From Lysobacteraceae bacterium (GTDB lineage Bacteria > Pseudomonadota > Gammaproteobacteria > Xanthomonadales > BQJN01): a DNA stretch of 64,000 bases. Positions 21,259 through 23,277 of this stretch are shown here, in pieces (position 1 is the first letter of the stretch; each line of letters opens with the position of its first letter). The DNA lies in assembly GCA_021604725.1 (NCBI GenBank), contig BQJN01000006.1, positions 1 to 64,000 on the forward strand, in the 5' to 3' direction. The position numbers and the translations under genes were made by a program. Below the pieces are notes generated by a model, which made no database searches, was not told where the DNA came from, and saw only the letters and a program-made list of their open reading frames with translations.

Positions 21259-22590
21259 TTAGAGCTTCAGCTTGTGCTGAATGAACATCGCTCTGAGCTG
21301 TTCAACTTTTCTGTGTACGGCCTCACCCAGGCAGTGCGGTTTGAATTCCTTCTCGGCGAACAACACCGCACCATTTTCTCGTTCCGCCCGATCGAAGATA
21401 GTGAAGTAATTGTTCATGAAGGGCAGCCCAAGGACAGACTGATCCGGCCACTTTGGCAGGTAAACAAACTGGAAGGAGATCTGGTTCGGCTCCGGCGCAT
21501 GGGTCTGCCAGTACGTTTCAGGCGTCATGGTCAACTCAACCGTCTCGCCATCGAAACCGTCAAATGTGAAATGCAACGATGGCCATTGCTCCAGGTCGAC
21601 CAACTGCATGTCGATCCCTTTCTCTACGCCCTCAAAGGTTCGAAAAGTCTCCAGCAGTGAGGCGAAAGAGGGGTTGTGTTTGATCAGGCCGTCGAACAGG
21701 CCATCAAAGAGCTTTTTCGGCAGAATCACCATGGATGCGCCGCTATCGACTATGGCATTTGACACGTAGCCTTTGACATATTCTGGCGCTAGCGCCGGGG
21801 CCTCGATAGGATCCATGTCACCCACACGCAAGCTTCGCAAATGCACGTTGTAGTATTTGTCATCCAACACCTTGACCTCTTTGAAATCCCCCTCATAGAG
21901 GTGGCCGTGAAGTTTCGGGTGGCCGAGGATGAAGACCCCATTGTTCAATGGGTGCTGTTTTAGTTCATCGATTGTCTTTTTTGTTTGCGTTTGATAAATG
22001 CTTGATCGGTGAATAATGAACGCGAACTGGTTGCCGACCACGCCGTTTTGTTCCAACTGGGTGAAATACGGAATGATTTCGTGTCGGGGAAACTGGCGCA
22101 GGAAGCTGCGGAACTCAGAGACGCTGTCATCGCTTTGTTCTTCATTTAAAAACCAGGGGTGCGTGACGGCCGGCTCGATACCGTTCTCGACCAGGTAACT
22201 CTCAAGGTTATAGGCTTTGTTAAGCTCACGGTAAGCTAGGCCCAACAGGCCATCGGCCAGCGCGAAGCTATTGGAGAGTTCCTTCTTTGCCACAGCAATG
22301 TGAACGTCGCGCAGACCCGCTTGAAAGAAGCCACTGCCGATATTGACCGAGGTCTTAACCACCGGTCCGTACCAGCCGCCCATACCGTAGGTCACATTCT
22401 GGGCAAAGCTGGTGGGGGCTAGATGCAGGTCCTGACTCGGGTCGTAGTCTTCATGTTGCACCACCATTGTGCTGCTACCGCTGTCGAGCACCAGGTTGGC
22501 CGCTTGTTTTTGGCTACCAATGTGGACCTGGGCTGTGTAGTCGCCCTTGGCGTAGACATTGGTGATCGGGACCAGAACGGATTTTGTCAT
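21259..22590 (-). CDS. Bacterial pepsin-like (A1-type) aspartic protease
   Basis: The 443-aa protein carries both halves of a pepsin-fold protease. The N-lobe active site is LVLDSGSSTMVV (D36) and the C-lobe site is AIVDSGASMVIL (D282). Further pepsin landmarks are the flap YG at Y68, 'ADGLLGLAYRELN' (compare FDGILGLAYP) and 'SVLGLPFMNNYFTIFDRA' near the end. Thr is Ser in both DTG triads (DSG), a substitution also seen in active family members. There is no signal peptide, so like the known Shewanella homologues (shewasins) it may be cytoplasmic, or it may be secreted by another route. A truncated antiporter remnant lies 10 bases upstream of its start. Confidence 0.85.
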   Translation of the reverse strand: MTKSVLVPITNVYAKGDYTAQVHIGSQKQAANLVLDSGSSTMVVQHEDYDPSQDLHLAPTSFAQNVTYGMGGWYGPVVKTSVNIGSGFFQAGLRDVHIAVAKKELSNSFALADGLLGLAYRELNKAYNLESYLVENGIEPAVTHPWFLNEEQSDDSVSEFRSFLRQFPRHEIIPYFTQLEQNGVVGNQFAFIIHRSSIYQTQTKKTIDELKQHPLNNGVFILGHPKLHGHLYEGDFKEVKVLDDKYYNVHLRSLRVGDMDPIEAPALAPEYVKGYVSNAIVDSGASMVILPKKLFDGLFDGLIKHNPSFASLLETFRTFEGVEKGIDMQLVDLEQWPSLHFTFDGFDGETVELTMTPETYWQTHAPEPNQISFQFVYLPKWPDQSVLGLPFMNNYFTIFDRAERENGAVLFAEKEFKPHCLGEAVHRKVEQLRAMFIQHKLKL

Positions 22591-22599
22591 TGACGGCTT

Positions 22600-22788
22600 T
22601 TAGTTTTTCAGGCGTTTTAGTAACGGATCGATGGTCAAGCCTTGTCCGATGATGGAGAAGGCCACAACAGTGTAAGTCATGCCCAGCAGCAGGTCGCGAT
22701 ACTCCCCGGGGCTCAAGGACAACACCAGCGCGATGGAAATACCGCCACGCAGACGACCACCCCATGTCACGATTAGTGCTGAAACTCG
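22600..22788 (-). pseudogene. Remnant of a CPA1-type Na+/H+ antiporter (C-terminal end)
   Basis: About 60 codons read TWGGRLRGGISIALVLSL, then 'TYTVVAFSIIGQGLTIDPLLKRL' and a stop. This is the conserved last two transmembrane segments of NhaP/CPA1 antiporters (WGGLRGG...VVLFSILVQGLTI). There is an in-frame stop just upstream, no plausible start, and the first ~350 residues are missing. It is therefore a 5'-truncated gene fragment. Confidence 0.8.
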
Positions 22789-22845
22789 CTACACTGAGTG
22801 ACACTGCACGAAACGAGCTACGGGTTCAATGATAAGGAGAAAAAG

Positions 22846-23277
22846 GTGCAATCGACCGGAATTTCAATAGCATCCATGCTGGTTTTGATCAGTGCTGGCA
22901 TCGTCGGCTTGTTGGGCCTTGCGCATCTGATACTGACGTTCAATGGTCCGAAGCTGCAGCCACGCGACCCGAAAGTGCGGCCGTTGATGGAGAGTGTTCA
23001 CCCGGGCATTACGCGGCAAACGACCATGTGGCGGGCCTGGCTTGGTTTTAATTCCAGTCATAGTTTAGGCGCTTTGCTTTTCGCTGCAGTCTATGGCTAT
23101 TTGGCCGTCGTTCAATCCACACTGATGTTCGATTCGATCTACCTGCAGGCACTAGGTGTGGTCGTTCTGACGGCTTACCTTGTTTTGGCGAAATTGTATT
23201 GGTTTAAGACGCCGTTAATCGGTATAGGCTTGTCCTTGCTTTTGTTCCTTGGCGCGATCGCAAGCCAAGTTTCTTGA
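22846..23277 (+). CDS. Small four-helix membrane protein, unknown
   Basis: The 143-aa protein has four hydrophobic segments (about residues 7-32, 68-88, 97-118, 122-140). I chose the GTG at 22846 because an AAGGAG Shine-Dalgarno sequence lies six bases upstream; an earlier GTG at 22798 has none. The loop 'LMESVHPGITRQTTMWRAWLGFNSSHS' between helices 1 and 2 carries several polar and His residues. I recognise no family with confidence. The next gene starts 13 bases after its stop, so the three genes 22846-24201 look like one operon. Confidence 0.7.
   Translation: MQSTGISIASMLVLISAGIVGLLGLAHLILTFNGPKLQPRDPKVRPLMESVHPGITRQTTMWRAWLGFNSSHSLGALLFAAVYGYLAVVQSTLMFDSIYLQALGVVVLTAYLVLAKLYWFKTPLIGIGLSLLLFLGAIASQVS

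Follow-up and report, generated by a model that had tools for sequence, protein, structure and literature searches.

Pepsin homologues have been described in seven bacterial species by Rawlings and Bateman (PMC2761423). The pepsins of Shewanella and Colwellia have no signal peptide, carry Ala and Leu at pepsin positions 218 and 303 respectively and are closest to BACE, and one of them, shewasin A, is a protein of 445 aa with D37, Y69 and D282 (PMC2761423, Table 2). Shewasin D is active at pH 3.5–4 and inhibited by pepstatin, is inactive as the D37A variant, and is expressed in its host, where it is found mainly in the cytoplasm (PMC4814920).

The window, by which we mean the whole stretch of 64,000 nucleotides that was analysed, contains at positions 21259–22590 a gene that an earlier note, made from the sequence, had taken for a pepsin homologue of 443 aa. 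This was borne out, and the gene was placed on the minus strand, where the open reading frame runs from an ATG at 22590 to a stop at 21259; the plus strand of the same interval is interrupted by stops. The start codon agrees with those of relatives. The product matches PF00026 of Pfam with an E-value of 1.2e-18 and a score of 68 bits, where the cut-off is 19.9; this is far beyond chance, and in the profile search of the genome the N- and C-lobes were each matched separately by the family profile. The same family is matched by 26/26 aligned bacterial sequences, the window's protein counted in, and the best PDB sequence matches of the protein, in which both catalytic regions align, are BACE2 and BACE1. 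A scan for promoters and terminators around the gene gave nothing above chance. The features of the locus are as follows.

21259–22590, minus strand: 443-aa pepsin homologue of peptidase family A1, bacterial shewasin type, with a start that matches the starts of relatives L003 and L004
22477–22485, minus strand: first catalytic motif, residues 36–38 (DSG), followed by S39
22387–22389, minus strand: flap tyrosine Y68 in TYGMGGW
22240–22248, minus strand: first psi-loop hydrophobic-hydrophobic-Gly, residues 115–117 (LLG)
21739–21747, minus strand: second catalytic motif, residues 282–284 (DSG), followed by A285 (pepsin position 218)
21427–21435, minus strand: second psi-loop hydrophobic-hydrophobic-Gly, residues 386–388 (VLG), followed by L389 (pepsin position 303)
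22600–22788, minus strand: remnant of the C-terminus of a Na+/H+ exchanger, 62 codons and a stop (PF00999, E 3.4e-5)

Two D-[ST]-G motifs are present in one chain (D36-S-G-S and D282-S-G-A), the flap tyrosine of family A1 (pepsin Tyr75) is Y68, which is invariant among the relatives, and a psi-loop hydrophobic-hydrophobic-Gly is found in each lobe (LLG 115–117 and VLG 386–388). Two further stretches pointed out previously, DGLLGLAY and the closing LGLPFMNNYFTIFDRA, were likewise found in the translation, as residues 113–120 and 387–402 respectively. The marks of the shewasin group are also present, with A285 at pepsin position 218 and L389 at position 303; Ala218 is not universal in the bacterial pepsin group. 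The disulphide cysteines of pepsins are absent, the single Cys in the protein being C420. With 35 residues before D36 and a polar N-terminus, as judged by eye, there is neither a signal peptide nor a pro-segment, and the sequence together with the published layout supports the likeness to the described bacterial members that had been proposed in this respect. The last 28 or so residues form a C-terminal tail that is predicted to be helical and is missing from the near relatives compared.

The catalytic aspartates are invariant among the homologues. All of the complete sequences (30/30) have D-[ST]-G-S as their first motif and D-[ST]-G-[ASCT] as their second, and they keep the YG of the flap and the psi-loop Gly. 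Both triads of the window's protein are DSG, as the note had remarked, but since the relatives carry DTG or DSG at either site this is normal variation of the group. With the motifs complete and conserved in this way, the sequence agrees with the proposal of an intact enzyme that is probably active.

Of the expected bilobal fold, the C-terminal lobe could be supported by modelling. Two AlphaFold2 runs with six sequences each gave a mean pLDDT of 46–47, with the confident regions confined to parts of the C-terminal lobe, approximately residues 235–413. This lobe in the first model matches porcine pepsinogen and BACE with an E-value of about 1e-9, but the N-terminal lobe was modelled with pLDDT below 40 in both of these six-sequence runs.

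A scan of bacterial genomes gave five close homologues with 48–59% identity, all of them bacterial, and one of them from the cultured Pleionea mediterranea. Counting the source genome in each case, homologues are present in 27/399 sampled genomes of the order, in 2/369 genomes of the class sample and, over the Pfam cut-off, in 7/399 genomes of the phylum sample, and by the order and phylum counts the group is commoner than the seven species first reported. The genomes G456 and G765 have two pepsin copies each. Around the homologues L052, L058, L061 and L062 the open frames are longer than the protease, 569–829 aa, possibly as fusions or as start-codon artefacts. In the relatives search none of the genomes shares the family or genus label of the source genome (G000), which appears to be the lone representative of its label there.

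The truncated antiporter that had been reported alongside the gene is the 62-codon exchanger C-terminus listed above. It lies directly upstream of the protease on the same strand, with its stop ending 9 bases before the protease ATG, and its PF00999 match covers positions 318–374 of the 375 in the profile with 23.3 bits, under the cut-off of 26.2 bits; five full Na+/H+ exchangers are located elsewhere in the genome. The remnant was not found beside any other homologue locus fetched. The other flanking genes encode a phosphoesterase, a laminin-G-like protein, a MarR regulator, a beta-lactamase-like hydrolase, a spermidine synthase, a MATE transporter and an ABC transporter. At 22798–23274, in divergent orientation to the protease, there is a gene whose product, a small membrane protein, belongs to the LIC_13387 family (NCBIfam, E 9.1e-31). 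Among the near-clade loci there is no conserved neighbour gene or operon partner.

In genus g4 of family f3, four loci have the pepsin gene clustered on one strand with ECF sigma factors (PF07638), and three of these four clusters also include TPR-containing Ser/Thr kinases (PF00069). The ECF sigma factor clusters have the following positions.

L050, 1358–9359
L051, 7420–13211
L053, 4270–10553
L055, 8379–10576

This clustering suggests that pepsin expression is regulated in genus g4. In other subgroups (L054, L056, L057, L058, L061 and L063, and also L041–L045) a GNAT acetyltransferase, a tetrapyrrole-methylase-like protein and a TPR-GGDEF protein are encoded near the pepsin gene.

The accessory setting had been taken as consistent with horizontal acquisition, and this suggestion was not supported. 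The GC3 of the pepsin gene is 0.667, and ten further genes in the window have values of 0.62–0.70. Within one order, the protein tree clusters by taxonomic family with 8 changes compared to 16.5 when the labels are shuffled. Because the GC3 equals that of the neighbours and the tree clusters by family, a gene long resident in the order, with some losses and an early duplication behind the two copies of G456 and G765, is favoured over recent capture. A recent transfer into an accessory island, whether from a eukaryote or from another bacterium, would be compatible with a protease function and could draw on the patchy presence in the order and on the exchanger remnant, which as a decayed antiporter end marks a local rearrangement. 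It is nevertheless unlikely, as the composition is that of the neighbouring genes, the tree follows the families for the most part and the nearest relatives are bacterial, with 48–60% identity, no homologue was found in the plasmids, phages or viral contigs searched, and the flanking genes examined include neither an integrase nor a transposase; on composition, tree and the absence from these mobile elements recent transfer was rejected. Old transfers between families are possible. More broadly, and tentatively, the bacterial A1 pepsins might be an old group, passed on mainly vertically in several families of a single gammaproteobacterial order and present as two paralogues in some genomes, and constitute native cytoplasmic proteases, one subgroup being under the control of ECF sigma factors and Ser/Thr kinases, rather than scattered eukaryotic captures.

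As to function, the protein is very probably a complete bilobal aspartic endopeptidase that belongs to the bacterial pepsin (shewasin) group, and like shewasins A and D it should be cytoplasmic and sensitive to pepstatin. While its sequence, motifs and family are direct observations, we infer activity, pH optimum, localisation and specificity from the characterised homologues. Both catalytic aspartates, D36 and D282, are supplied by one polypeptide and would activate a water molecule, with the flap tyrosine Y68 closing over the substrate. If the analogy with shewasins A and D holds, there would be no zymogen stage, the protein would be mostly cytoplasmic, and cleavage would occur between hydrophobic residues with an optimum near pH 4 and be blocked by pepstatin; the likeliest role would be limited or scavenging proteolysis within the cell. 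Weak secondary matches to TAXi xylanase-inhibitor models could instead point to a pepsin fold that has lost protease activity and serves as a binding protein, like the pregnancy-associated glycoproteins or the plant xylanase inhibitors, but this is quite improbable, given that the protein has intact copies of both DSG motifs, the flap Tyr and both psi-loop Gly motifs, all conserved in the complete relatives, and that the characterised homologue shewasin D is an active protease. Contamination of the assembly by a eukaryote, conceivable in a fragmented genome of 210 contigs that is 89.6% complete, can practically be dismissed with an intronless frame that lies among bacterial genes (spermidine synthase, MATE transporter, MarR and ABC transporter) and with the closest homologues in bacterial genomes, that of the cultured Pleionea mediterranea included.

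The protein is thus a genuine but ordinary addition to a small group of enzymes already described and biochemically tested in marine bacteria such as Shewanella. Bacterial pepsins bear on the origin of the two-lobed eukaryotic enzymes, and a new sequence is here added from a lineage without close relatives among the searched genomes. The homologue of Pleionea mediterranea (L007) shows 59% identity to the window's protein and has both motifs and Ala218 in common with it, but both of its triads are DTG instead of DSG, and the neighbouring genes differ. BACE-1 and BACE-2 (memapsins) have the bilobal A1 pattern in common with the window's protein and are its best solved-structure matches, but their identity to it in the structural match is only about 20%. 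They are eukaryotic secretory membrane proteins with a pro-segment, disulphides and a transmembrane anchor. With shewasins A and D the window's protein has in common the length, the positions of the D/Y/D residues, the Ala218 and Leu303 equivalents, the lack of a signal peptide and pro-segment, and BACE as nearest eukaryotic kin. Compared by its published description, shewasin A has 445 aa and D37/Y69/D282, against 443 aa and D36/Y68/D282 here, but the hosts of shewasins A and D are Shewanella amazonensis and S. denitrificans respectively, and the window's protein comes from a different bacterial lineage.
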